The notes under the pieces: generated by a model | What the model was told of the DNA's origin: nothing | What the model saw: the letters and a program-made list of their open reading frames with translations, nothing else | The model's database searches: none | Shown: piece after piece, positions 132-13,057 of the stretch | Layout of the letters: every line of letters starts with the position of its first letter | Position numbering within the stretch: position 1 is the first letter of the stretch | Origin: Actinomyces sp. | GTDB lineage: Bacteria > Actinomycetota > Actinomycetes > Actinomycetales > Actinomycetaceae | DNA length: 35,548 nucleotides | Direction of reading: 5' to 3' | Assembly (NCBI RefSeq): GCF_030524025.1 | Contig: NZ_JAUNHI010000023.1 | Span: 1 to 35,548, forward strand | Made by a program: the position numbers and the translations under genes

Positions 132-1343
132 ATGACTGAGCAGCACACGAGCCCGCCACAGGCCCAGGACGCGACCGCCGTCGCCGACTCCCGGCAGACC
201 GCGGCCGTCCTCCCACCGCGCACGGCGACCCAGGAGGTCCTGGGCCAGGCGGGTCGGCGCGGTCCCTTCCGGTATGGCGAGCGCGTCCAGGTCACCGATG
301 TCAAGGGCGCCAAGAACACCTTCCAACTCGATCCCGGCGGCTACTTCCAGTCGGTGCGCGGCTCCTTCCGCCACCGCGACGTCGTCGGCCTGGAGGAGGG
401 CACGGTGCTCACCACGGAGTCGGGCCATGAGCTGCTCCTCCTGCGGCCCCTGCTGGCCGACTACGTCCTGTCAATGCCGCGTGGCGCCCAAGTGGTCTAC
501 GCCAAGGACTCCGGCCAGATCATCGCGATGGGCGACATTTTCCCCGGTGCCCGCGTCGTCGAGGCCGGCGTGGGCTCAGGAGCCCTGACGATGAACCTAC
601 TCAGCGCGGTCGGCGAGAGCGGGCGCCTGCTGAGCATCGAGCGACGTGCGGACTTCGCCCAGATCGCCGCCTCCAACGTCGACTCCTGGTTCGGGCGCCA
701 CCATCCCGCCTGGGAGCTGCGCACCGGCGACTTCGCCGAGGTCACGGCCCACCATGTCGCCCAGGGGAGTATCGACCGCATCGTGCTCGACATGCTCGCC
801 CCCTGGGAGAACATCGCCGAGTCCGCCCGCGTGCTCGTGCCCGGCGGCCTCCTCCTGGCCTACGTGGCCACCACCACCCAGCTGTCGCGCACGGTCGAGG
901 CCCTGCGCCACAGCCGCCTGTTCACCGAGCCCGAGTCCTGGGAGTCGATGGTGCGTACCTGGAACGTCGACGGGCTGTCGGTGCGTCCCGACCACCGCAT
1001 GGTCGCCCACACCGGCTTCCTGCTCACCGCACGGCGCCTGGCCGCCGGGTCGCTGCCCCTGACCCGCAAACGCCCGCCCGCCCGGGGCGCCTACGACGAC
1101 GCCGGCTACTGGCTGCCCGAGGACGTGCGCGAGCGCACCAGCACCGACCGCAAGGTCCGCCGGGTCCTGCGCGACTGCCTGGCCAAGCAGCCGCAGGACC
1201 GCACCCCGGTGCTGCCGGGGACACCACTGGGCCAGGACGGGGGCTCCGACAAGGCCCGACGCCGACCGGGGACGGAGGCGACTGACCTGACTGATATGAC
1301 CGACGTGACTGACGGGAATGACTCCTATGACGGGACTGCCTGA
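132..1343 (+). CDS. trmI: tRNA (adenine-58-N1)-methyltransferase TrmI
   Basis: SAM-dependent enzyme that methylates N1 of A58 in the tRNA T loop. The 403-residue product has an N-terminal beta domain (GPFRYGERVQV region) and a Rossmann methyltransferase fold. The SAM-binding glycine motif VVEAGVGSG lies at residues 142-150, followed by an acidic strand-2 end (SIERR) and the catalytic-loop motif LDMLAPW. The frame is open from 54, but ATG 132 (or GTG 129) is preferred because the TAGACT -10 box sits just upstream and homologous sequence starts only after it. The C-terminal tail is an acidic Thr/Asp repeat with lower GC3 that is not part of the family fold. It is first in a run with arc, dop, pup and pafA, the usual actinobacterial order. 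Confidence 0.93.
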   Translation: MTEQHTSPPQAQDATAVADSRQTAAVLPPRTATQEVLGQAGRRGPFRYGERVQVTDVKGAKNTFQLDPGGYFQSVRGSFRHRDVVGLEEGTVLTTESGHELLLLRPLLADYVLSMPRGAQVVYAKDSGQIIAMGDIFPGARVVEAGVGSGALTMNLLSAVGESGRLLSIERRADFAQIAASNVDSWFGRHHPAWELRTGDFAEVTAHHVAQGSIDRIVLDMLAPWENIAESARVLVPGGLLLAYVATTTQLSRTVEALRHSRLFTEPESWESMVRTWNVDGLSVRPDHRMVAHTGFLLTARRLAAGSLPLTRKRPPARGAYDDAGYWLPEDVRERTSTDRKVRRVLRDCLAKQPQDRTPVLPGTPLGQDGGSDKARRRPGTEATDLTDMTDVTDGNDSYDGTA

Positions 1344-3087
1344 CTCCGCGGCGCCCTCGGCGCCGTCCATCCCCCCGACGCGGCAGGGCGCGGCCCCCCA
1401 GGAGCTGGGCATGCCCGCCAAGGACTTCACGAGTCACCAGCTGCGCGAGGCCCGCTCTGAGGCGGTGAGCCTGGCCGCCAAGAATGAGCGCCTCGTCACC
1501 GCCCTGGGGGCGGCTCGCGAGCGCATCGCCGAGCTTGGCACCCAGCTCGACGCCGTGACCCTGCCGCCGGTCACCCTGGCCGTGCTCACCGGCCCGGCTG
1601 AGTCTCGCCAAGCGCCCAGGGCCGAGGACGACAACGAGGACGACAACGATGGCGCCGACGCCGAGACCGGCGCGGGTGGAGGGTGGCCGGTCGAGGTGCC
1701 GGTGGCGCTGGGCGGGCGCCCCATGCGCCTGGGTGTCCACCCCGGCCTCGACTCCGCCGAGCTGCGTGCCGGCAGGCTCGCGGCGGTCAACGACCAGATG
1801 CTCGTCGTCGACGTCCTGCCCGCGCCCGACACGGGGGAGGCGGTCGTCCTCGACGAGGTCCTCGACGAGCGCCGCGCGCTGGCGACCACCGGGGGAGGGG
1901 CCACCCGCGTGCTGGTCCTGGGCGGGGACCTCGACCATGACGCCCTGCGCCCCGGCGACACCCTGGCCGCCGACCTGCGAGCGGGCACGGCCACCGCGGT
2001 CATCGAGCGCACGAGCGTCGCCCAGCTCGTCGTCGCCGAGACCCCGGACGTCTCCTGGTCCGACATCGGTGGGCTGGCGCCGCAGATCGAGCAGATCCGC
2101 GACGCTCTCGAGCTGCCCTTCACCCACCCCGAGCTCTACCGCCGCTACGGGCTGCGGGCGCCCAAGGGACTGCTCCTGTACGGGCCGCCGGGCTGCGGCA
2201 AGACGCTCATCGCCAAGGCGGTGGCCACCTCCCTGGCGGGCTCGGCGCCGGGATCCGGACGGGGGGCGGCTTTCCTCAACATCAAGGGGCCCGAGCTGCT
2301 CTCGAAGTTCGTCGGCGAGACCGAGCGGCAGATCCGCGCCATCTTCGAGCAGGCCCGGAAAGTGGCCGCAGAGGACCGGCCTGTCGTCGTGTTCTTCGAT
2401 GAGATGGAGGCGTTGTTCCGCACCCGGGGAACCGGGGTGTCCAGCGACGTTGAGACGATGATCGTCCCCCAGGTCCTGGCCGAGATCGACGGCGTGGAGT
2501 CGCTGAGCAACGTTGTGGTCATCGGTGCCTCCAACCGGGAGGACATGATCGACCCGGCGGTTCTGCGCCCGGGCCGCCTCGACGTCAAGATCCGTGTCGG
2601 GCGCCCCGACGCCGCCGGTGCCCTCGACGTCCTGTCCCGGCACCTGACCCCCGCCCTGCCCCTGGACCCCGGGGAGCTCGCCGGGCACGGAGGGGACCGC
2701 GAGGCTACCGTGCAGGCCATGGGCCAGGCGGTTGTCGCGGCGCTCTACGCGCGCACGCCCTCGACCGCGGTCCTCGAGGTCACCGACACCTCAGGGGCGA
2801 CCGAGGTCCTGCATGTGGCGGACCTCGTCTCAGGGGCCATGCTCGCCGCCGTGGTCGCGCGGGCCAAGACCCAGGCGATCAAGGACGAGCTGGCCGGAGG
2901 CACCGGGGGGCTGTCGACGGCGGGGCTCCTACAGGCGGCCGCGGCCGAGGCACGCCAGAACGAGGAGATCACCGGTGCCACCAGCCCGGAGGGATGGGCC
3001 CGTCTGGTGGGCGGGCGCTCCATCCAGGTCGCCTCGGTCCGGCTGCTGGGCGGCGGGCCGCCGCCCGAGGCGGGGGAGCGGGGATGA
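1318..3087 (+). CDS. arc: proteasome-type AAA ATPase ARC/Mpa, lacking the C-terminal proteasome-docking motif
   Basis: Hexameric ring ATPase that recognises pupylated proteins through an N-terminal coiled coil and unfolds them. Seen here: a coiled-coil stretch (about residues 32-80, DFTSHQLREARSEAV onward), OB-type domains, and an AAA module with Walker A GPPGCGKT (289-296), Walker B VVFFDE ending at D361-E362, and RPGRLD for the arginine-finger region. Family members that feed a 20S proteasome end in a Gln-Tyr-Leu type tail. This one ends PPPEAGERG, so docking is unlikely. The start is uncertain. ATG 1318 and 1327 overlap the trmI end, while ATG 1411 has the best Shine-Dalgarno (AGGAG, 6-nt spacing) and begins at the coiled coil. 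The longest form is given. Its stop overlaps the dop start by 4 nt. Confidence 0.93.
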   Translation: MTPMTGLPDSAAPSAPSIPPTRQGAAPQELGMPAKDFTSHQLREARSEAVSLAAKNERLVTALGAARERIAELGTQLDAVTLPPVTLAVLTGPAESRQAPRAEDDNEDDNDGADAETGAGGGWPVEVPVALGGRPMRLGVHPGLDSAELRAGRLAAVNDQMLVVDVLPAPDTGEAVVLDEVLDERRALATTGGGATRVLVLGGDLDHDALRPGDTLAADLRAGTATAVIERTSVAQLVVAETPDVSWSDIGGLAPQIEQIRDALELPFTHPELYRRYGLRAPKGLLLYGPPGCGKTLIAKAVATSLAGSAPGSGRGAAFLNIKGPELLSKFVGETERQIRAIFEQARKVAAEDRPVVVFFDEMEALFRTRGTGVSSDVETMIVPQVLAEIDGVESLSNVVVIGASNREDMIDPAVLRPGRLDVKIRVGRPDAAGALDVLSRHLTPALPLDPGELAGHGGDREATVQAMGQAVVAALYARTPSTAVLEVTDTSGATEVLHVADLVSGAMLAAVVARAKTQAIKDELAGGTGGLSTAGLLQAAAAEARQNEEITGATSPEGWARLVGGRSIQVASVRLLGGGPPPEAGERG

Positions 3088-4820
3088 GCGCCGTCGGAAC
3101 CATGGACTTCCTGGGCCCGGTCTCCAGGCCGGTGGGGCTGGAGACTGAGTACGGCGTTGTCGAGCCCGGCAACCCCCGGGCCAACCCGGTCGTCCTGGCC
3201 ACCAGGGTCGTGGAGGCCTATGGCGCACTGTCCCGGCCGGGCCTGGAGGGCCCGCCCGTCGCCTGGGACTACGAGGCCGAGGACCCGCTGGCGGACCTGC
3301 GGGGCGGGCGGATGGATCGCTCTGCGGCCCACCCCAGCCAGCTGACAGACGACCCTGCGCGCCTGGCGCCCCCGGCCCCGGAGGGCTCCGGCTCCCCGGC
3401 CTGGGGCAGCCGGCCGCGCCCCTCGGCGGCCGAGGCACCGCTTCCGCGGGCCACGACGGCGGTGCTGACCAACGGCGCCCGGCTCTACGTCGACCACGCC
3501 CACCCCGAGTACTCCTCCCCGGAGGTCCTGACCCCGCGCGAGGCACTCGTGTGGGACCGGGCCGGGGAGGAAATCGCCCGGCAGGCCATGAGCGCTCTGG
3601 ACGCCGCGCCCGCCCGCGAGCCTTCCGCGGCTTTCGGCGGCGCGACTGGCGGCGGGGTCGTGCTCTACAAGAACAACGTCGACGGCAAGGGGGCGACCTA
3701 CGGCTCCCACGAGAACTACCTCGTGCGCCGCGACCTGCCCTTCCACGTCCTGGCCACCGCCCTCATCCCCTTCCTCGTGACCCGCCCGGTCATCGCCGGC
3801 GCGGGCCGGGTGGGCATCGGCCAGCGCAGCGAGGCGCCGGGGTTCCAGATCAGCCAGCGGGCCGACTACGTCGAGACCGAGATCGGCCTGCAGACCACCT
3901 TCAACCGGCCGATCGTCAACACCCGCGACGAGCCCCACGCCCAGGCCGAGCTCTTCCGCCGCCTGCACATCATCAATGGGGACGCCAACCGGTTCGACGT
4001 CCCCATCTACCTCAAGGTTGCCACCACCGACCTGGTCCTGTGGTACCTCGAGCGGGCGCACGACCGCGGCGAGGCGATGGCGGGGCTCGAGCGCCTGCGC
4101 CTGACGCGCGATCCGGTCGAGGAGCACTGGGGACTGAGCCACGACACGACACTGAGGCACGCCCTGGCCACGGCCACGGGCCCGATGACCGCCCTGGAGA
4201 TTCAGCGGGCCCATCTCGAGGCGGTCCGCGCCGCCATCACCGAGGACTTCGGGGGGACCGGCGCGCAGCAGGCCGGGCGGGACACCGCCGAGGCCCTCCA
4301 TCTGTGGGAGGAGGCGCTGTCGCGCCTCGAGGCCTACGCCCGGGCCCTGGACGGGCCGCGGGAGGGGTGGGCGGCATCTCGGGCCGCCGAGATGATCGAG
4401 TGGATCGCCAAGCTGCAGCTGTGCCGGGGCCTGCGGGAGCGCACCGGGGCGCCGTGGGACGATCCGCGGCTGGCGGCTCTGGACATCCAGTGGGCCGACC
4501 TGCGCACGGGACGCTCGGTGGCCGACAAGCTGATCGGTGCCGGGCTGACCCGACGGCTGTGCACGGATGAGGAGGTCGCCTCGGCTGCTGTGACGGCGCC
4601 CCGCGGCACCCGCGCCGCGGCACGTGGGCGTGCTGTCGCCGAGTTCGGCGAGGTCGTCGCCGCATCATGGACGAGCCTGGTCGTGGACGTTCCGGGCGGG
4701 CCCGACCTGCTGCGCCTCGAGCTTCCCGGCGAGGTCGTCCTCGATGAGGAGGGGGTCGAGGGGGTCCTGGCCGACATCCGGCGGGCGCTTGGGCGCAGGG
4801 GCTCCGGTGGGGGACACTGA
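3084..4820 (+). CDS. dop: Pup deamidase/depupylase Dop
   Basis: Glutamine-synthetase-fold enzyme that deamidates the C-terminal Gln of Pup to Glu and also removes Pup from substrates. The start ATG overlaps the arc stop (ATGA). The N-terminal metal/ATP motif GLETEYG is present, as are ARLYVDHAHPEYS with the catalytic Asp at about residue 137, YKNNVDGKG, GSHENY, and INTRDEPHA. At 578 residues it is longer than the roughly 500 usual for the family. Much of the extra length is a Pro/Ala/Gly-rich expansion of the Dop loop (about residues 80-124), between DYEAEDPL and AVLTNGARLY. Dop and PafA are paralogues. This one is assigned as Dop by the YVDHAHPEYS form and by its position before pup, whose product still carries a C-terminal Gln. 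Confidence 0.93.
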   Translation: MSAVGTMDFLGPVSRPVGLETEYGVVEPGNPRANPVVLATRVVEAYGALSRPGLEGPPVAWDYEAEDPLADLRGGRMDRSAAHPSQLTDDPARLAPPAPEGSGSPAWGSRPRPSAAEAPLPRATTAVLTNGARLYVDHAHPEYSSPEVLTPREALVWDRAGEEIARQAMSALDAAPAREPSAAFGGATGGGVVLYKNNVDGKGATYGSHENYLVRRDLPFHVLATALIPFLVTRPVIAGAGRVGIGQRSEAPGFQISQRADYVETEIGLQTTFNRPIVNTRDEPHAQAELFRRLHIINGDANRFDVPIYLKVATTDLVLWYLERAHDRGEAMAGLERLRLTRDPVEEHWGLSHDTTLRHALATATGPMTALEIQRAHLEAVRAAITEDFGGTGAQQAGRDTAEALHLWEEALSRLEAYARALDGPREGWAASRAAEMIEWIAKLQLCRGLRERTGAPWDDPRLAALDIQWADLRTGRSVADKLIGAGLTRRLCTDEEVASAAVTAPRGTRAAARGRAVAEFGEVVAASWTSLVVDVPGGPDLLRLELPGEVVLDEEGVEGVLADIRRALGRRGSGGGH

Positions 4821-4867
4821 GCCCGTCCCCGTGCGCCAGGCGCACTCATCCCAGCAGGAGGCACGCT

Positions 4868-5050
4868 ATGACCCAGCACGAGCAGATCCGGCCCACCGCC
4901 GGCCTGGGGGAGGATGCCCCGGCAGGGACGGGCGGCTCCGGCCAGGCCAGGGTGGTGGGCGTCGACGATATCCTCGACGAGATCGACACCGTCCTGGAGA
5001 CCAATGCGGCGGCCTTCGTCGAGGGCTTCGTCCAGAAGGGCGGGCAGTGA
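4868..5050 (+). CDS. pup: prokaryotic ubiquitin-like protein Pup
   Basis: Small, largely disordered tag that PafA couples to lysines of target proteins. The 60-residue product ends in Gly-Gly-Gln, so it must first be deamidated by Dop. The conserved C-terminal half is clear: a helix-forming segment VDDILDEIDTVLETNA, then FVEGFVQKGGQ, which binds the Arc coiled coil and the ligase. The N-terminal part is variable. A good Shine-Dalgarno (AGGAGG, 4857-4862) precedes ATG 4868. The stop codon overlaps the GTG start of pafA by 4 nt. In proteasome-bearing actinobacteria prcB and prcA sit at this junction, and here they are absent. Confidence 0.97.
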   Translation: MTQHEQIRPTAGLGEDAPAGTGGSGQARVVGVDDILDEIDTVLETNAAAFVEGFVQKGGQ

Positions 5051-6513
5051 GCACCTCGGACCCCGGCCGGGAGGCGGGCGTGACGGGTGGGCCGGCCCCC
5101 GGGCGCCGGCCCGCGGCCCGACGCGTCGTGGGCCTGGAGACCGAGTACGGCATCACCTGCGCCTCGACCACCGGCGGCCCGCCCCCGATGGACGCCGACA
5201 GCGCCGCCCACGAGCTGTTCGACCCGGTGGTCCAGCGCCACCGCGCCTCCAACGTCTTCACCCGCTCCGGTGCCCGCCTCTACCTCGACGTCGGCTCCCA
5301 CCCCGAGTACGCGACGGCCGAGTGCGACCGGCTGACCGACCTGCTGGCCCAGGACCGTGCCGGCGAGCTGGTCATGGCCGACCTGGCGGCCCGGGCCAAC
5401 GCCCGCCTGGAGGACCGGGAGGTCCCCGGCCGCATCCACCTGCTCAAGAACAACCTCGACGCCCGGGGCCAGGGCTTCGGCTGCCATGAGAACTACCTCG
5501 TGCGCCGTCGCGCCGAGTTCTGGAACGACGCCCGCACCCTCGTGCCCCACCTCGTCACCCGTCAGATCCTCGTCGGCGCGGGGCACCTCCTGGCCGGGCC
5601 CCGGGGGACGCGCTACGTCTTCTCTCAGCGGGCCGACCAGATGGAGGACGCGGTCTCCGCGGCCACGACCCGGGCGCGTCCCCTCATCAACACCCGCGAC
5701 GAGCCGCATGCGGACGCCGAGCGCTACATGCGGCTGCACGTCATCGTCGGCGACTCCAACATCGCCCAGGGATCGACCCTGCTCAAGGTCGGCGCCATGG
5801 ACCTGGTCCTCGACCTGCTCGAGCACGGCGGTGACCTGACCGACCTCGAGCTGGCGCAGCCCATGCGCGCCATCCGGGACACCTGTCACGATCTGTCGGG
5901 CTCGGCCGCCCTGGAGCTGGCGAGCGGCCGCACGATCACGCCGGTCGACCTCCAGGGCGAGCTGCTGGACCGGGTGGCCGACCACTGCCGGGCCGAGCTC
6001 GATCTCGATCCGCTGCGCGCCGGTGCCCTCGACCTGTGGGAGCGGGGCCTGGAGGCGGTGCGCTCGGGGGACCACACGCCGGTGGAGACCGACCTGGACT
6101 GGGCGGTCAAGCACCGGCTGCTCCTGCGCTACGCCGAGCGTGCGGGCACCGACCTGGACGACCCCCGGGTCCGGCGCCTGGCACTGGCCTACCACGACGT
6201 CGGCCCCGATGGCCTGAGGCCCGCGCTGGAGGAGGCGGGCCTGCTCAGGCGCGTTGTTGACGAGGAGACCTGTCGCCGGGCGGTGGACACGGCGCCGTCG
6301 ACCACCCGGGCCCGCCTGCGCGGCATGGCGGTGTCTCGGGCGCAGGACCTGCGCCGCGACCTCAGTGTCGACTGGGTCATGCTCCGGCTCGACGACGGCA
6401 GCGTTCCCCCGGTGTCCCTGCGCGATCCTTTCGCCGCCCAGGACGATCGTGTCGACGCCCTGCTGGCCGCGATGGACCGTCAGGCGACCGGCCAGCCGCC
6501 GCCGTGCGCCTGA
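5047..6513 (+). CDS. pafA: Pup-protein ligase PafA
   Basis: ATP-dependent ligase that forms the isopeptide bond between the C-terminal Glu of deamidated Pup and substrate lysines. The 488-residue product has the glutamine-synthetase/carboxylate-amine fold shared with Dop: RVVGLETEYG near the N-terminus, ARLYLDVGSHPEYA with the catalytic Asp at about residue 81, LLKNNLDARG, GCHENYL, INTRDEPHADAERY, and a C-terminal small domain (RAQDLRRDLSVDWV). It lacks the Dop loop, which separates it from Dop. The start is GTG 5047, coupled to the pup stop by a 4-nt overlap. The frame is open further upstream but without homology. Codon use matches the neighbours. Confidence 0.95.
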   Translation: MSTSDPGREAGVTGGPAPGRRPAARRVVGLETEYGITCASTTGGPPPMDADSAAHELFDPVVQRHRASNVFTRSGARLYLDVGSHPEYATAECDRLTDLLAQDRAGELVMADLAARANARLEDREVPGRIHLLKNNLDARGQGFGCHENYLVRRRAEFWNDARTLVPHLVTRQILVGAGHLLAGPRGTRYVFSQRADQMEDAVSAATTRARPLINTRDEPHADAERYMRLHVIVGDSNIAQGSTLLKVGAMDLVLDLLEHGGDLTDLELAQPMRAIRDTCHDLSGSAALELASGRTITPVDLQGELLDRVADHCRAELDLDPLRAGALDLWERGLEAVRSGDHTPVETDLDWAVKHRLLLRYAERAGTDLDDPRVRRLALAYHDVGPDGLRPALEEAGLLRRVVDEETCRRAVDTAPSTTRARLRGMAVSRAQDLRRDLSVDWVMLRLDDGSVPPVSLRDPFAAQDDRVDALLAAMDRQATGQPPPCA

Positions 6514-6543: not shown

Positions 6544-8058
6544 ATGACTACCCCCGACGACACGACCGACCTGCCGCTCGGCGGCGCTGACGGCAAGCCC
6601 CTCACGCGCCGCCAGATGAGGGAGCGCGAGCGCGCCCGGGAGGCGGCCGCCAGGGCCGCTGAGGCAGCGAGGGCCGCATCCGTGGCAACCCCTGCCGGCG
6701 AGCCTCGTGCCGCCGCCGTCGGGCGTCAGGCCCACGCCGTTCCGCCCGTTCCCACGGCCGCCACCCCTGAGGCCGCCCCCCGCGTCCCCCCGTTCCCGCC
6801 GCCCGGCCGGAACACACCTCCGGTGCTCACGCCGGCCCCCGCGCCCTCGGCCCTGCGCCGGGCGGCGGCCGGGGGCGTGAGCCGGGAGTCCAGGCGGACG
6901 GTGTCGCCTGTGCCGGTGGCGTCGGCAGGGTCGGCCGATGAGGCAGTGGGTGCCGCTTCCCCCGATGAGCCGGAGGACAGCGCGCAGGACCGGGACAAGG
7001 AGCCGGGGACCTCCACCGGCGCCCAGCGCGCCATCGGGGCGACCCTGGGCCGGCCTCGTCCGCGCGGGCGCGTCGCCCTGGTCCTGGCGGTTGTCGCCGC
7101 CCTGGCCATCGTCCTCGTGCCCGTGACGGTCTCCCGGTTCGCCGGGGGGACCGACGCCACGACCACCACGGCGAGCCAGGGCGCACCGGTGCCGGGAGAC
7201 GCCCCTCTCGACCAGGTCATGGAGGTTGCCGGGCGCGTGGGCAGTGTCCCGGTCGTCTCCCTGTCCGGGCCGTTGACGGCCGTCGAGGCCGTCCGCACCG
7301 ACGAGGTCGTCGTCGGGCAGGGCAGGGCGCTGGCCGCCGGTGAGGCCGTCCTGCTCAGCGTGTCGACCTTCTCGGGGACCGACGGGACGAACACGACGGG
7401 GACGACCGCGGGCAACCGGATCTACCGGGGGGTGCTCGACACCTCGACGCTCGGCCAGGCCCTGGCCGAAGCGGTCACGGGCGTCACGGAGGGGTCGCGC
7501 ATTGTGCTGCGCGCGCCCATCACCGATGCCGCGGGCGCGGTGTCCACGGAGATCACGGTGGTCGACATCCTGCCGACCACCGCCACCGGCGAGGAGCTGA
7601 GCCCTCCGGCCGGCACACCCGCCGTCACCGTCGCGGCCGACTCCACGGTGACGCTGTCGGTCCAGGGGCTGCCCGCCCCCACCCGCTCGGCCTCGGCGCT
7701 GCTCGTGCGCGGACAGGGCCAGCAGGTCGAGAGCGACGACGTCGTCATCGCCCGCTACGCGACGGTGGGCTGGGCCGATGGGGCCATGCGCAACAACACC
7801 TACGGGGTGACGACCGTCCCCAGCCTCATCGACATGACCGACACCCTGTCGGGCATCAGCCGGCACCTGGTCGATGTGACGGTCGGCTCCCGGATCGTCC
7901 TGTCCCTGCCGGCCGACCAGGCCACGGGTGACGGAGCGGTGGCCGTCGTCATCGACGTCCTGGCCATCGCCGACGACGAGGCGCTGGCGCAGGCCTCAGC
8001 CTCCCCCGAGGCCACCGAGGACGGGGTGGTTTACGTCACTCCGTCGGCCGCGCCCTGA
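6544..8058 (+). CDS. membrane-anchored protein with two degenerate FKBP-like domains
   Basis: The 504-residue product starts with about 165 disordered Ala/Pro/Arg-rich residues. A single transmembrane helix (about 176-197, VALVLAVVAALAIVLVPVTV) follows a basic stretch, so the C-terminal part is predicted outside the cell. Two repeats follow, about 215-345 and 360-490. Each carries remnants of the FKBP pattern: a DG turn, a GSRIVL strand, and a closing VVIDVL or ITVVDIL strand. The family's usual aromatic active-site residues (Tyr, Phe-Asp, Trp) are mostly missing, so prolyl isomerase activity is doubtful. FKBP-type isomerases often follow pafA in actinobacteria, which supports the assignment. 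It could be a chaperone-like or binding protein. Its stop lies inside the 3' end of the convergent gene. Confidence 0.6.
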   Translation: MTTPDDTTDLPLGGADGKPLTRRQMRERERAREAAARAAEAARAASVATPAGEPRAAAVGRQAHAVPPVPTAATPEAAPRVPPFPPPGRNTPPVLTPAPAPSALRRAAAGGVSRESRRTVSPVPVASAGSADEAVGAASPDEPEDSAQDRDKEPGTSTGAQRAIGATLGRPRPRGRVALVLAVVAALAIVLVPVTVSRFAGGTDATTTTASQGAPVPGDAPLDQVMEVAGRVGSVPVVSLSGPLTAVEAVRTDEVVVGQGRALAAGEAVLLSVSTFSGTDGTNTTGTTAGNRIYRGVLDTSTLGQALAEAVTGVTEGSRIVLRAPITDAAGAVSTEITVVDILPTTATGEELSPPAGTPAVTVAADSTVTLSVQGLPAPTRSASALLVRGQGQQVESDDVVIARYATVGWADGAMRNNTYGVTTVPSLIDMTDTLSGISRHLVDVTVGSRIVLSLPADQATGDGAVAVVIDVLAIADDEALAQASASPEATEDGVVYVTPSAAP

Positions 8059-8702
8059 GGGCGGGCCCCGACTGTGCACTGGTCGGTGACCACGATGAGC
8101 CGGGGCTCCCAGGAGGTGCCGCGCCACCGGTGCGCCACGATCGAGGCCTGGGACTCCCAGGCCTCGATGTCCCACGTATAGGGGTCTCGCCGCCTGATCC
8201 GATGGTGCCTCAGCTCCTCAGGCGCCTCGAGAAGGACCCGCAGTACCGCGAGGGCCTCCAGGTCCTGGGCCACCGCCGCCAGTGCGCCGCAGCCCTCGAT
8301 GAGGAGGACCGCGCCGTCCAGGGGCCCGATGACGAGATCGGTTCCCGGCGCCATGCGCCGCCAGTCCCAGCGCGGCGCCCGGGCGGGCAGTCCTCGGTCG
8401 AGGGCGGCCACGACCTGCGCGCACCGGTCGACGCCGGCGGACAGGCCCTGCCAGCCCGGAGCGAGGTCGTCGATCGCCAGGACGCCGGCGCACCGCTGTC
8501 CCAGCACCCCGGCGAGGCGGTCGGCCAGGGTGGATTTGCCCGCGCCGGGCGGGCCGTCAATGGCGATGACCACCCCGTGGGCGCGCCCCGGTGCGGTCCA
8601 CCGCTCCCGGTCGGAGCACAGGCGGGCCAGCTCCTCGAGCGCCTGCCCGGGAGTCACGACGCTCGGTCGGCTCACCGTCCCGTTGGCATGCGTAGAGGTC
8701 AT
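8031..8702 (-). CDS. P-loop kinase-like protein (uridine kinase family)
   Basis: The 223-residue product has Walker A GPPGAGKS at residues 50-57 preceded by a hydrophobic strand. It then has a uridine-kinase-like segment IDDLAPGWQGLSAGVD, a WDWRRM motif and the strand AVLLIEGCGAL. The C-terminal part contains RRRDPYTWD. These features fit the P-loop nucleoside-kinase group, but the substrate cannot be told from sequence. ATG is at 8702-8700, and a TAGCCT -10 box ends exactly 6 nt upstream, suggesting a leaderless mRNA. It converges on the FKBP-like gene with a 28-nt overlap and diverges from hisF. Confidence 0.7.
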   Translation of the reverse strand: MTSTHANGTVSRPSVVTPGQALEELARLCSDRERWTAPGRAHGVVIAIDGPPGAGKSTLADRLAGVLGQRCAGVLAIDDLAPGWQGLSAGVDRCAQVVAALDRGLPARAPRWDWRRMAPGTDLVIGPLDGAVLLIEGCGALAAVAQDLEALAVLRVLLEAPEELRHHRIRRRDPYTWDIEAWESQASIVAHRWRGTSWEPRLIVVTDQCTVGARPQGAADGVT

Positions 8703-8708
8703 CGCGTC

Positions 8709-8714
8709 AGGCTA
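8709..8714 (-). promoter_or_regulatory. -10 element TAGCCT for the P-loop kinase-like gene
   Basis: On the minus strand TAGCCT is followed by 6 nt and then ATG (8702). The start codon falls at the predicted transcription start, so the mRNA should be leaderless. Confidence 0.6.
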
Positions 8715-8770
8715 GATGATCGGTCCCGGGGGCGGTGGGCGGGCGCAGACAGGACCCCGGCCGACCGGTG

Positions 8771-8776
8771 TAGCCT
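8771..8776 (+). promoter_or_regulatory. -10 element TAGCCT for hisF
   Basis: TAGCCT lies 48 nt upstream of the hisF ATG. Transcription would start near 8783 and leave a leader of about 42 nt containing the Shine-Dalgarno GGGAGGG (8808-8814). Confidence 0.5.
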
Positions 8777-8824
8777 CGTGCCAGCCGAGCACACCGACAC
8801 GCCCGCCGGGAGGGACCACAGACG

Positions 8825-9595
8825 ATGAGTGTCGCGATCCGCGTCATCCCATGCCTCGACGTCAAGGACGGCCGCGTGGTCAAGGGCGTCAACTTCATGG
8901 GGCTGCGTGACGCCGGCGACCCCGTCGAGCTGGCCCGCCGCTACGACGAGCAGGGCGCCGACGAGATCACCTTCCTGGACGTGTCCGCCTCGAGCGAGGA
9001 CCGCTCGACGATGATGGAGGTCGTCTCGCGGACCGCCGAGCAGGTCTTCGTCCCGCTGACCGTGGGCGGAGGGGTGCGCAGCGTCGAGGACGTCGACAGG
9101 CTCCTGCGCGCCGGCGCCGACAAGGTCGGCATCAACACGGCCGCGATCCACCGCCCCGAGCTGCTGGCCGAGGTCGCCGAGCGCTTCGGCAACCAGGTGC
9201 TCGTCCTGTCGGTGGATGCCAGACGCTGCCCGCCGGGGGTGTCGACCCCCTCGGGCTACGAGGTGACCACCCACGGTGGCACCCGCTCAACGGGCCTGGA
9301 CGCGGTGGCCTGGGCCGTGCGCGCCGCCGGGATGGGCGCCGGGGAGATCCTGCTCAACTCGATGGACGCCGACGGTGTCACCGGCGGCTTCGACCTGGAG
9401 ATGCTCGACGCGGTGCGCGAGGTCGTCACCGTCCCGCTCATCGCCTCCGGTGGCGCGGGACGCGCGGAGGACTTCGCAGCCGCCGCCGACCACGGCGCCG
9501 ACGCCGTGCTGGCCGCCAGCGTCTTCCACTACGGGGTCCTGACCATCGCCCAGGCCAAGGACGCCCTGCGGGTGGGCGGCCACCCCGTACGCTGA
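8825..9595 (+). CDS. hisF: imidazole glycerol phosphate synthase cyclase subunit HisF
   Basis: Cyclase half of IGP synthase. It uses ammonia from the HisH glutaminase to turn PRFAR into imidazole glycerol phosphate and AICAR in histidine synthesis. The 256-residue beta/alpha barrel has both catalytic aspartates, D12 in [14 protein letters not shown] and D131 in LSVDARR. It also has the phosphate-binding loops [22 protein letters not shown] and [11 protein letters not shown], and the LLNSMDADG segment. The length is normal. The start is ATG 8825, with GGGAGGG 10 nt upstream. hisH and hisA are not in this window, while hisI lies about 1 kb downstream. Confidence 0.97.
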
Positions 9596-10124: not shown

Positions 10125-10592
10125 GTGGGCGCGGCCGAGGCCCCGGAGGTCACCGGGGGCAGGAGTGGGCTGACAGCGGCACAGCGTACGGCGCTCGCTG
10201 CTTCCTTCCTGCCCTGCGTCGTGCTCCTCGGGTCCCAGGTGCTGGGCGGTGGAGTCCCGGCCGGACCCGACCTGTGCCCCGTGCACCGGCTCACCGGGTA
10301 CTGGTGCCCCCTGTGCGGCGGCACCCGCGCGACCCATGCGCTGGTCCATGGGGACCTGCACACCGCCGTGGGCTACAACCCCTTCGCCCTGCTCCTCCTC
10401 GTGGCCGGAGGCGCCCTCGTGGCGCGCTGGCTCCTGCGCCGCGTGCGGGGCAGGCCCCGTCCGTTGCTGACGGGGCTTGTCACCGGCAGGGAGGTCGCGG
10501 TCCTGGCCGGCGCCGCCGCCCTGTTCGCCGTCGTGCGCAACATGCCGGGCATGTGGGTCCACCTGGGCCCGCTCCTGGGGCCTCCGGGCTAG
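10125..10592 (+). CDS. DUF2752-like membrane protein
   Basis: The 155-residue product has about three hydrophobic segments (residues about 22-42, 85-103 and 120-140). It carries the DUF2752 hallmark [17 protein letters not shown] after a first [11 protein letters not shown] cysteine pair, so four cysteines lie on the same face. The function of the family is not established. Members often sit in the actinobacterial trp region between hisI and lgt, which matches this position. The start is GTG 10125, 4 nt after the preceding stop. No strong Shine-Dalgarno is visible, so translational coupling is likely. Confidence 0.75.
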
Positions 10593-10633
10593 GCGGGACC
10601 GGACGCCCCGGCCACGGTCCGCAACCGGCGTGC

Positions 10634-10639
10634 GACAAT
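10634..10639 (+). promoter_or_regulatory. -10 element GACAAT for hisI
   Basis: GACAAT (A at position 2, T at position 6) is followed by exactly 6 nt and then GTG 10646, matching the leaderless arrangement seen at other genes in this window. Confidence 0.5.
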
Positions 10640-10645
10640 CGAGGC

Positions 10646-11071
10646 GTGACCGTCCCGAGCTCATCGACACCCACCTCAGCGGCACCTGCGCGGCGCCCCG
10701 ACGCCCCCGGGCTGCCCGCCGGGATCGCCGCACGGCTCAAGCGGGACCGGGACGGCCTGGTCGCCGCGGTCGTCCAGCAGCACGACACCCGTGAGGTGCT
10801 CATGGTCGGGTGGATGGACGACGAGGCACTCCGGCGCACCCTGAGCCAGGGGCGTGTCACCTTCTGGTCGCGCTCCCGCCAGGAATACTGGCGCAAGGGC
10901 GACACCTCGGGCCACCACCAGTACGTCAAGGCGGTCAGCATCGACTGTGACGGCGACGCCCTGCTCGTCGAGGTCGACCAGGTCGGTGCCGCCTGCCACA
11001 CCGGGGCGCGCACCTGCTTCCTCGCCGGAGGCGACCTGGAGGCGGTCGAGGGCGGGCGTCCCGTCACCTGA
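10646..11071 (+). CDS. hisI: phosphoribosyl-AMP cyclohydrolase HisI
   Basis: Opens the adenine ring of phosphoribosyl-AMP in the third step of histidine synthesis. The 141-residue product has the [20 protein letters not shown] motif at about 73-92 and the metal-binding cluster D100-C101-D102-x-D104 with C117 and C124, all present. The first 25 residues are a low-complexity extension. The start at GTG 10646 is chosen because a -10-like GACAAT ends 6 nt before it. The frame is open further upstream but would run back through the DUF2752 gene. It is monofunctional, with no HisE domain. Confidence 0.95.
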
Positions 11072-11105: not shown

Positions 11106-11177
11106 ATGGGCGTGGACAACGACGTCGGCTCCCTGGCAGACCGAGTCCCGGGCCACGGCGAGGAGGTGCACCCATGA
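11106..11177 (+). CDS. possible 23-codon ORF coupled to the trpC-like start
   Basis: ATG 11106 opens a 23-residue frame (MGVDNDVGSLADRVPGHGEE and on) whose stop overlaps the downstream ATG as ATGA. It holds no Trp, so it is not a classical attenuation peptide. A weak GAGGA lies just upstream. It occupies the place where other actinobacteria carry small genes before trpC, so it may be a remnant or simply chance. Confidence 0.2.
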   Translation: MGVDNDVGSLADRVPGHGEEVHP

Positions 11178-11998
11178 CCGTCTTCGACACCCATGTCGCC
11201 GCCGCCAAGGCGGCGGTGGAGCGTCGCGAGCGGCTCACCCCCCTGGAGGACCTGCGCGAGCTCGTGCGCTCGGTGACCAGCACCCGGGACGCCAGCGCCC
11301 TGCTGCGCACCCCCGGGCGCGCGGTGGCCGTCGTCGCCGAGGTCAAGCGTGCCACCGCCACCTTCGCCGACCTGACCGGGGTGGGGGACCCGGCGGTCCT
11401 CGCCCGCTTCTACGAGGCCGGCGGGGCCGCCTGCGTGTCGGTGGTCACCGAGCCGTTGCGCTCCCACGGCTGCCTGGCAGACCTCGATGCCGTCCGCGCC
11501 GCCGTCGACGTGCCCGTGCTCGTCAACGACCTCGTCGTCACCCCCTACCAGGTCCACGAGGCGCGAGCCCACGGCGCCGAGCTGCTGCTGCTCGACGCCC
11601 GCCTCGAGCCACTGGTCCTCGAGTCGCTCATCGAGCGCACCCACTCGATGGGGATGACTGCGGTCGTCGACGTCCACTCCCGCCGCGAGGCGATCACCGC
11701 CGTGGAGTCGGGAGCCCGCGTCGTGGCGGTCGACGCCCGTGACCACGAGACCCTGGCCGTCGATCGACGCCGCTTCGAGCAGGTCGCCGAGCTCCTGCCC
11801 GCCTCGGTGACCCGGGTCGCCACCGGGGGAGTGCGGGGCCCCCGCGACGTCATGGGCTACGCTCGCGCGGGCGCCGACGTCGTCATCGTGGGGGAGGCCG
11901 TCCTGCGCTCGGCCGACCCCCAGCAGTTCGTCGCCGAGCTGGTCGCCGCGGGAAGCCATCCCGCCCTGCTGACCGCCACCCACAGAGAGGGGCTCTAA
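11174..11998 (+). CDS. TrpC-like (indole-3-glycerol phosphate synthase) protein with substituted catalytic residues
   Basis: The 274-residue beta/alpha barrel aligns along its whole length with actinobacterial TrpC. The AEVKR motif (E56, K58), VSVVTE, PYQVHEARAHGA and GEAVL segments are preserved. Key positions differ. The LRKDF catalytic lysine is Asn118 (LVNDL). The SPS phosphate motif is TAT (61-63). The catalytic Glu of LVEVH is Asp166. The Asn of GVNARDL is Asp187 (AVDARDH). The ESG motif is TGG (217-219). The frame is intact and the codon use normal, so the protein is maintained but unlikely to be an indole-glycerol-phosphate synthase. It starts at ATG 11174 after a good AGGAGG and abuts lgt. 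A gene symbol is withheld because the activity is doubtful. Confidence 0.8.
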   Translation: MTVFDTHVAAAKAAVERRERLTPLEDLRELVRSVTSTRDASALLRTPGRAVAVVAEVKRATATFADLTGVGDPAVLARFYEAGGAACVSVVTEPLRSHGCLADLDAVRAAVDVPVLVNDLVVTPYQVHEARAHGAELLLLDARLEPLVLESLIERTHSMGMTAVVDVHSRREAITAVESGARVVAVDARDHETLAVDRRRFEQVAELLPASVTRVATGGVRGPRDVMGYARAGADVVIVGEAVLRSADPQQFVAELVAAGSHPALLTATHREGL

Positions 11999-13057
11999 GT
12001 GCCCGCAGCCGCAGCGGCGGTCGCCGCGCATCTGACCGCGCTCGTGCCATCCGCGGCCTCATCGGCCTCATCGACCTCCTCGGTGGGGCCCGTCTCCATC
12101 CCCAGCCCCTCCCAGTCCGTGTGGTACCTGGGCCCCGTCCCCCTGCGCGCCTACGCCCTGTGCATGCTCGCCGGCATTGCCGTGGCCGTGTGGTGGACCG
12201 ACCGGCGCTACCGGCGTGCGGGCGGGCCACAGGACACCGTCCTGGACCTCGCACTCGTCTCGGTGCCGGTGGGCATCGTCGGGGCCAGGCTCTACCACGT
12301 CCTGTCCTCCCCGGAGCGCTACTTCGGCCCGGAGGGCGACCTGTGGCTCATCCCCAGGATCTGGGAGGGCGGCCTCGGCGTGTGGGGGGGCATCGCCGCG
12401 GGTGCCGCGGCCTGCGCCTGGCTGCTGCGCCGCCGCGGCCTGCGCGTGGCCCCCTTCGCCGACGCCGCGGCCCCCACCGTCCTCGTGGCCCAGGCCATCG
12501 GGCGTCTGGGCAACTACTTCAACCAGGAGCTCTTCGGCGGACCGACGACACTGCCGTGGGGCCTGGAGATCGACGCCGCGCACCTGCCGCTCGGGTACGC
12601 ACCGGGAACCCTGTTCCACCCCACCTTCCTCTACGAGGCGCTGTGGAACCTGTTCGGCGCGCTCGTCCTGCTCGGGCTGGGGCGGCGCCTGACCCGCGAC
12701 GGCGGGGTCAGCGGCGGCCGGCTCATGTGGGCCTACCTCATGGTCTACACCTCCGGCAGGGTGTGGATCGAGTACCTGCGCGTCGATGACGCCCAGGTCG
12801 TGGCCGGGCTGCGCCTCAACGTGTGGACCTCGCTGGTCATCTTCCTCGTCGGCCTGGTGGGCTACGTATGGTCCTCCCGGCGGCCCCTGAGCGATGACAT
12901 CGCCCTGCCCGGCCGGGCCCCCGCTCACTCGGAGGACCCCGAGACGGCGCCGGCCTCCTCCACCGGTACCCGCCCGGACGACGATGCGCAAGCCGAGGAT
13001 CGCGTAATTCATGCGAAATCACGGCCTGACAGGCTTCGCGAGGACGAGACGCAGTAG
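11999..13057 (+). CDS. lgt: prolipoprotein diacylglyceryl transferase Lgt
   Basis: Integral membrane enzyme that transfers diacylglycerol from phosphatidylglycerol to the lipobox cysteine of prolipoproteins. The 352-residue product has about seven hydrophobic segments, the family signature GRLGNYFNQELFG, the WEGGLGVWGG loop, HPTFLYEALWN, and SGRVWIEYLRVDDAQ near the C-terminus. The first 35 or so residues are Ala/Ser-rich and the last 50 are a hydrophilic tail. Both are variable in the family. The start is GTG 11999, directly after the trpC-like TAA, with GAGAGGGG upstream. An internal start near 12084 is possible. One predicted client in this window is the Asp-rich lipoprotein at 30002. Confidence 0.94.
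   Translation: MPAAAAAVAAHLTALVPSAASSASSTSSVGPVSIPSPSQSVWYLGPVPLRAYALCMLAGIAVAVWWTDRRYRRAGGPQDTVLDLALVSVPVGIVGARLYHVLSSPERYFGPEGDLWLIPRIWEGGLGVWGGIAAGAAACAWLLRRRGLRVAPFADAAAPTVLVAQAIGRLGNYFNQELFGGPTTLPWGLEIDAAHLPLGYAPGTLFHPTFLYEALWNLFGALVLLGLGRRLTRDGGVSGGRLMWAYLMVYTSGRVWIEYLRVDDAQVVAGLRLNVWTSLVIFLVGLVGYVWSSRRPLSDDIALPGRAPAHSEDPETAPASSTGTRPDDDAQAEDRVIHAKSRPDRLREDETQ

Follow-up and report, generated by a model that had tools for sequence, protein, structure and literature searches.

Why should an Actinomyces genome retain, immediately before lgt, an intact gene for a protein of the indole-glycerol-phosphate synthase (IGPS, TrpC) family in which most active-site residues of that enzyme have been replaced? 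The question was raised by an initial annotation of a 35,548-nucleotide stretch of Actinomyces sp. DNA (assembly GCF_030524025.1, contig NZ_JAUNHI010000023.1), referred to here at its whole length as the window. The features on which the answer depends are the following.

8825..9595, plus strand: hisF, the upstream marker of the ancestral his-trp-lgt site (TIGR00735, 342.2 bits against a cut-off of 294.55)
10802..11020, plus strand: PRA-CH domain of hisI (PF01502), inside the open reading frame 10274-11071
11160..11166, plus strand: Shine-Dalgarno-like GAGGAGG, 7 bases 5' of the ATG, as read in the sequence
11174..11998, plus strand: trpC-like gene, 274 amino acids, of predicted IGPS fold with a rebuilt active site (Pfam IGPS match, alignment, AF2 model)
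11339..11347, plus strand: codons E56-V57-K58, with the retained catalytic Glu and Lys (E57 and K59 of the Mycobacterium tuberculosis, Mtb, enzyme); Glu in 49/49 Actinomyces, Lys in 46/49 and Arg in 3
11354..11365, plus strand: codons T61-A62-T63-F64, in place of the S-P-S-K loop; present in 48, 49, 47 and 49 of 49 Actinomyces, respectively
11525..11527, plus strand: codon N118, replacing the catalytic Lys (Mtb K119); Asn in 47/49 Actinomyces, His in 2
11669..11671, plus strand: codon D166 (Mtb E168); Glu in 37/49 Actinomyces
11732..11734, plus strand: codon D187, replacing the Asn of GVNARD (Mtb N189); Asp in 47/49 Actinomyces, Ser in 2
11822..11827, plus strand: codons T217-G218 (Mtb E219-S220); Gly in 49/49 Actinomyces, position 217 variable
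11999..13057, plus strand: lgt (TIGR00544, 155.6 bits against a cut-off of 118.9); the opening GTG of the frame, a candidate start, abuts the stop codon of the trpC-like gene

The trpC-like open reading frame runs from an ATG through 274 codons to a stop codon and contains no internal stops. Its third-position GC content (0.935) falls within the range of five adjoining genes (0.912-0.963), so that its codon use looks ordinary, and together with the ribosome-binding-site-like motif this agrees with the original description of the gene as free of frameshifts, normal in codon use and properly preceded for translation. The gene order is hisF-hisI-trpC-lgt, with neither trpB nor trpA beside the gene. 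Two open frames 5' of hisF (6544-8058, 504 amino acids, and 8130-8828, 232 amino acids) have no Pfam or NCBIfam match, and a relative of the longer one lies near hisF in many of the compared loci. Further upstream (1318-6513), a proteasome-like ATPase followed by two Pup-ligase family frames forms a pupylation gene set. Three Actinomyces genomes (L033, L037, L049) have an open frame of about 670-690 amino acids between hisI and the trpC-like gene.

Membership of the IGPS family is clear. The window protein scores 165.9 bits against Pfam IGPS (PF00218; cut-off 27) over residues 8-256, and among solved structures it comes closest to Mtb TrpC (3qja, E 1.4e-68), with which it aligns from end to end, as first proposed. 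Against the NCBIfam TrpC equivalog NF001369 it reaches 287.1 bits, under the cut-off of 329; five out of five proteins with the TAT-type loop, four of them from Actinomyces, score 287-305, compared with 403-433 for five canonical stand-alone enzymes, all above the cut-off. Little can be made of this shortfall, because a TrpC with canonical residues that is fused to TrpB also lies below every TrpC cut-off compared. An AF2 model (60 rows) has a mean pLDDT of 90.3 and a barrel-like order of strands and helices, the changed loop (block 61-70, mean pLDDT 61) being its least certain part besides the C-terminal tail. Alignment and model are both consistent with a protein that remains a folded barrel and keeps the Glu-x-Lys-Arg strand as well as the glycines in its last two strands.

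The changes are concentrated in the known motifs: from Mtb TrpC (3qja) to the window protein, KRASPS becomes KRATAT, LRKDF becomes LVNDL, LVEVH becomes VVDVH, GVNARD becomes AVDARD and AESG becomes ATGG. The protein therefore has the Glu and Lys of AExKR (E56, K58) and a carboxylate at the place of E168 (D166), and is without the catalytic Lys (N118), the SPS loop, the Asn of GVN and ESG (TAT, D187, TGG). Compared with the Mtb enzyme (PDB 3qja, 3t40, 3t44), it shares the fold, the length and E57, K59, R60, R191, G221 and G242, but differs by Asn for K119, T-A-T for S62-P63-S64, Asp for N189 and Gly for S220; E219 is lost in most Actinomyces. The replacement of Lys, SPS and Asn by Asn118, TAT and Asp187, noted in the window, is lineage-wide (47-49 of 49 Actinomyces genomes), as is the retention of E56 and K58; D66 and the kept R59 occur in 49/49, and strand 4 carries the new residues D141 (45/49) and R143 (46/49). 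Two other replacements proposed for the window are real there and only partly hold for the lineage. At the position of Mtb E168, where the window has Asp, the 49 genomes have Glu (37), Lys (5), Gly (3), Asp (2) or Gln (2), so that the loss of Glu is no family trait; in the ESG motif only the change of Ser to Gly is fixed, the Glu position being Ala (22), Thr (16), Glu (6), Gly (2), Cys (2) or Gln (1). The Lys, the Asn, both Glu and the Ser are kept in 21/21 sampled copies of other genera and in 20/20 second, fused copies sampled from Actinomyces, all with canonical residues; lineage-wide exchanges in Actinomyces against an intact site elsewhere amount to more than chance. When 5.8 billion proteins were searched, 3357 matched at E 1e-60; among the 120 matches listed, the TAT/Asn/Asp/Gly type occurred only in proteins named Actinomyces or lacking an organism name, with a few variants (e.g. 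Ser for Lys in three that lack an organism name), and all others were canonical.

The gene is present in all 49 Actinomyces genomes, the 48 copies besides the query being 63-97% identical to it, and it is held there by purifying selection. Its dN/dS is 0.05-0.18 in 12 Actinomyces pairs, far from 1, in keeping with the initial suggestion that it is kept under selection, and lies under the value of lgt in 12/12 pairs; these are Nei-Gojobori estimates that ignore codon bias, and the contrast with lgt is therefore safer than the absolute values. The presence of a 97% identical copy in a second genome rules out a sequencing error or a pseudogene. The initial annotation had named a second normal trpC as the sign of a plain paralogue in decay. 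A canonical TrpC does exist in the genome, but 49/49 retention, open frames and low dN/dS rule out decay.

This second IGPS, at C10, is fused to TrpB, has canonical residues and adjoins trpE, trpD and trpA. The window genome therefore holds trpE, trpD, a TrpC-TrpB fusion and trpA away from the window, which contradicts the idea that loss of trp genes was the trigger in this genome. The fusion is of the same kind as the bifidobacterial TrpC-TrpB (PRK13802 / NF010375; PMC11085991, extract), although at 611.8 bits it stays below the cut-off of 1386 for PRK13802 / NF010375; it differs from the window gene in its canonical catalytic residues and its place in a trp set away from lgt. A second TrpC match occurs in 47/49 Actinomyces genomes, and in 45/47 of them the open frame containing it exceeds 700 codons, which is to be expected of a fusion. 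A tree rooted on the five fused rows places the window gene among actinobacterial TrpC, apart from those rows, from which it follows that the window gene is the displaced original trpC and not a decaying duplicate.

The consequences for activity can be judged from Mtb IGPS. According to the extract of PMC10591298 used here, Ala at E57, K59, K119, E168 or E219 abolishes activity, K119R lowers it more than 2700-fold, and E168D causes a 2-fold loss, to half of kcat. Of these positions, E57 and K59 are intact in the window protein, E168 carries the mild exchange to Asp, and K119 and E219 are missing. Since the catalytic Lys is gone, and in view of the published mutants, we infer that its IGPS activity would be lost. 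That it is still an IGPS, perhaps using unusual catalytic residues and backing up the fused TrpCB, would fit the strong family match, the kept E57 and K59 and the tolerance of E168D in Mtb (PMC10591298, extract), but we regard it as very improbable. The catalytic Lys is essential in Mtb (same extract), and two Actinomyces genomes (G002, G047) hold the gene as their only TrpC match, with a stand-alone trpB and without trpA and trpD, a setting that sets it apart from canonical TrpC.

What, then, keeps the gene in place? The trpC of related genera occupies the same chromosomal slot as the window gene. In 19/21 sampled loci of other genera trpC is followed by trpB, with lgt further on in 18/19, and trpA lies between trpB and lgt wherever coordinates were compared (e.g. 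G201, G110). The order in M. tuberculosis, which we take to be hisF hisI .. trpE .. trpC trpB trpA lgt, fits this as the ancestral slot. In 49/49 Actinomyces loci, by contrast with these clusters, lgt follows the slot gene directly and trpB is missing, and the same holds for 36/36 orphan loci of other genera, i.e. those of the slot-gene genomes without trpA, less two Actinomyces, plus those of genomes with another trp set. The 21 loci were picked from 164 non-Actinomyces genomes and supplemented with those showing trp loss, two copies or low scores; as the loci were chosen by hand, orphan frequencies do not represent a random sample. Two of the 21 (L057, L072) are themselves orphans and were moved or dropped in the residue comparison below. 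In one genome, two trpA copies of equal score lie 3.2 kb apart (G055:C1:1416302-1420222), perhaps in a duplicated trp segment.

Across the family, trpA scores above cut-off in 173/213 genomes. Of the 40 without it, a list completed from genomes absent among the trpA matches listed, 24 keep a slot-type TrpC, 13 have no match (one of these, G139, is 57% complete), two have weak non-IGPS matches and one has a copy of the replacement type. None of the 24 has trpD above cut-off, hisI is missing in seven of them, and no in-frame stops were reported in their slot copies, although that of G196 looks eroded. The slot gene thus outlives trpA, trpD and sometimes hisI and yet stays beside lgt, which makes a job in tryptophan or histidine synthesis unlikely; a histidine job in particular is disfavoured by the seven genomes without hisI together with one Actinomyces genome (G046). 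The gene is nevertheless absent in 16/40 trpA-negative genomes, and eight trpA-holding genomes (G049, G050, G056, G073, G075, G080, G083, G135) have only a replacement-type TrpC, a count that leaves out G180 (170 pieces), which would be the ninth; whatever the job is, it appears dispensable in some settings.

The constant proximity to lgt raises the question of whether the open frame is needed merely for transcription or translation of lgt, the protein itself being functionless. Such passive retention would explain why the gene lies just 5' of lgt in 49 Actinomyces loci and in 36 orphan loci of other genera, and why the GTG of the lgt frame abuts its stop codon in the window. It does not account for purifying selection on the amino acids that exceeds that on lgt in all 12 Actinomyces pairs, nor for a junction that, judged from predicted starts, differs by lineage, the two genes overlapping or touching in some and probably standing at least 90 bases apart in others. 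Moreover, trpB and trpA have been removed, so that loss of trpC should be easy, as it was in the 16 trpA-negative genomes that lost it. We consider this explanation quite unlikely. Elsewhere the contrast with lgt is less uniform: in 16 orphan pairs of other genera dN/dS is 0-0.20 where dS was computable (14/16, some pairs being saturated), and the slot gene exceeds lgt in two of the 16, G150/G144 (0.20 vs 0.15) and the g3 second copies (0.19 vs 0.03).

The orphan state arose repeatedly. At least nine changes between orphan and cluster state are required on the Lgt tree (71 rows, 16 of the 49 Actinomyces among them) and 10 on the TrpC tree (81 rows, 13 Actinomyces), both trees having been built quickly and containing unresolved forks as well as long rows. 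The AU test rejects a single orphan clade (p 4.3e-5 for 46 rows against 35, the latter including L219 and L246, two orphans that do not belong to the family), and four genera hold sister pairs of cluster and orphan state in Lgt and TrpC trees alike. These two results rule out one ancient second TrpC family as the origin of the orphans. In a scan of 77 loci from named genomes, trpC before lgt without trpB was found in five Pseudonocardia records and one Mycobacteriales metagenome-assembled genome; in the Pseudonocardia loci (L211, L219, L222, L229, L244) trpC stands directly before lgt and has canonical residues.

Residues kept and lost by the orphans outside Actinomyces are informative. The comparison used 33 orphan genomes out of 36, without G051 and G055, which are too divergent, and G205, which is nearly identical to G206. 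Retention is high for the catalytic Lys (91%), Asn189 (97%) and Ser220 (91%), compared with only 36% for Ser62, 18% for Ser64, 18% for Lys65, 9% for Leu92, 30% for Ile142 and 27% for Ala145; all nine positions are kept in 100% of 24 canonical rows, in which canonical G091 is counted twice. The changed positions presumably line the IGPS substrate pocket. Change of loop and pocket with the Lys kept looks, at the level of sequence, more like a switch to another ligand than like plain decay, although relaxed constraint on the anthranilate side alone would give a similar pattern. Among the copies examined, the catalytic Lys is lost only in Actinomyces, in three g16 genomes (Thr) and in two g3 second copies (Arg). 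The g16 genomes (L116, L117, L162) acquired Lys to Thr separately, have Ala for both E219 and S220, and are without trpA and trpD. The g3 genomes (L125, L126) hold a normal TrpC plus the second copy beside lgt, which has about 30% identity to Mtb TrpC, Asp for Asn and no SPS loop.

A stand-alone TrpB above cut-off, away from the trpC-lgt slot, is found in 15 of the 24 genomes without trpA and trpD (G002, G047, G111, G114, G117, G129, G130, G131, G143, G144, G150, G152, G174, G196 and G211; e.g. loci L248, L250 and L251) and is absent in nine. Stand-alone TrpB in such genomes suggests indole salvage, and its presence in 15/24 may tie the slot gene to indole or tryptophan. A general job as partner of TrpB is ruled out by the nine genomes that lack it. 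Nothing related was found among nine open frames scanned beside the stand-alone TrpB of three genomes.

Taken together, these observations favour, with a probability of about 0.6, a reading in which the slot TrpC is an enzyme that was kept and took on a new role, acting on a phosphorylated ligand; that the Actinomyces gene has a second job is probable. On this reading, the original, vertically inherited actinobacterial trpC has remained at its ancestral place between hisI and lgt, the IGPS step is carried in Actinomyces by the TrpB-fused TrpC of a separate trp gene set, and trpB and trpA have gone from beside the old gene, which was kept. Its product would no longer make indole-glycerol phosphate and would be either a small-molecule enzyme, possibly catalysing a new reaction, or a ligand-binding barrel, its phosphorylated ligand being different from CdRP. 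Most of the remaining orphan lineages have altered substrate-side positions and intact residues for the chemistry, and Actinomyces has replaced catalytic residues as well.

An alternative is that the Actinomyces protein is a pseudoenzyme, a non-catalytic barrel serving as ligand sensor, allosteric partner or scaffold (e.g. for TrpB, the fused TrpCB, HisF/HisI or Lgt). In its favour, 49/49 genomes have lost the catalytic Lys (47 Asn, 2 His) and 49/49 the Asn (47 Asp, 2 Ser), and the positions of E168, E219 and F121 (Mtb numbering) vary among Actinomyces, as they could in a non-catalytic protein. The tryptophan pathway also offers a precedent: the extract of PMC12727527 describes a eudicot TSB-like protein that has lost key residues, is kept and activates TSA without catalysis; unlike the window protein, it is a relative of TrpB, and its partner is known. 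On the other side, canonical and fused copies share 60 conserved columns. In 15 of these the residue has almost disappeared from Actinomyces, and in 9/15 a new one is at least 95% fixed, compared with 69/202 non-universal columns in a group whose pairwise identities have a minimum of 0.54 and a median of 0.67. This hints at a working pocket, and K119, E168 and N189 are kept in most orphans outside Actinomyces. We consider a pseudoenzyme rather improbable.

The second job itself could be older than the loss of the pathway. Actinobacterial TrpC might have had an ancestral role outside tryptophan synthesis, tied to lgt and the cell envelope, which would explain why trpC alone stays by lgt after trp loss in some ten lineages and would make Actinomyces a specialist. 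In one version TrpC may handle a glycerol or pentose phosphate, e.g. the glycerol phosphate that Lgt frees as a by-product. The link to lgt rests on position, which is itself inherited, and we offer this extension as a tentative one that is rather unlikely to hold.

The reading of a retained enzyme with a new role has a close precedent. The initial annotation drew a parallel with PriA, and this is apt: in Actinomycetaceae PriA gave rise to SubHisA2 and SubTrpF, kept and altered as his and trp genes were lost (eLife 2017 e22679, extract). PriA derivatives and the window gene are alike in being his/trp barrel enzymes of the same bacterial family, retained and altered where his and trp genes are lost, and the window gene likewise shows purifying selection after its original role was taken over. 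They differ in that the PriA derivatives keep one of two known reactions (eLife 2017 e22679, extract), whereas the known reaction of the window protein appears lost. The word 'trpC' is absent from the main text of the PriA paper as available in extract, and among the titles and opening lines of abstracts listed from the open-licence PMC literature, none described a repurposed TrpC or the retention of trpC beside lgt. Reuse of a his/trp barrel driven by gene loss is thus a known kind of event; the enzyme, TrpC, and the many parallel cases are new.

Where public records give these Actinomyces proteins a name, it is TrpC, and pathway predictions may as a result count such copies as evidence for tryptophan synthesis. 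If our reading is true, nature has run an experiment here: one enzyme was repeatedly deprived of its pathway and yet often survived. The question of what second job keeps an enzyme alive after the death of its pathway would then be testable in orthologues at different stages, with substrate-side changes coming first and changes of catalytic residues later.
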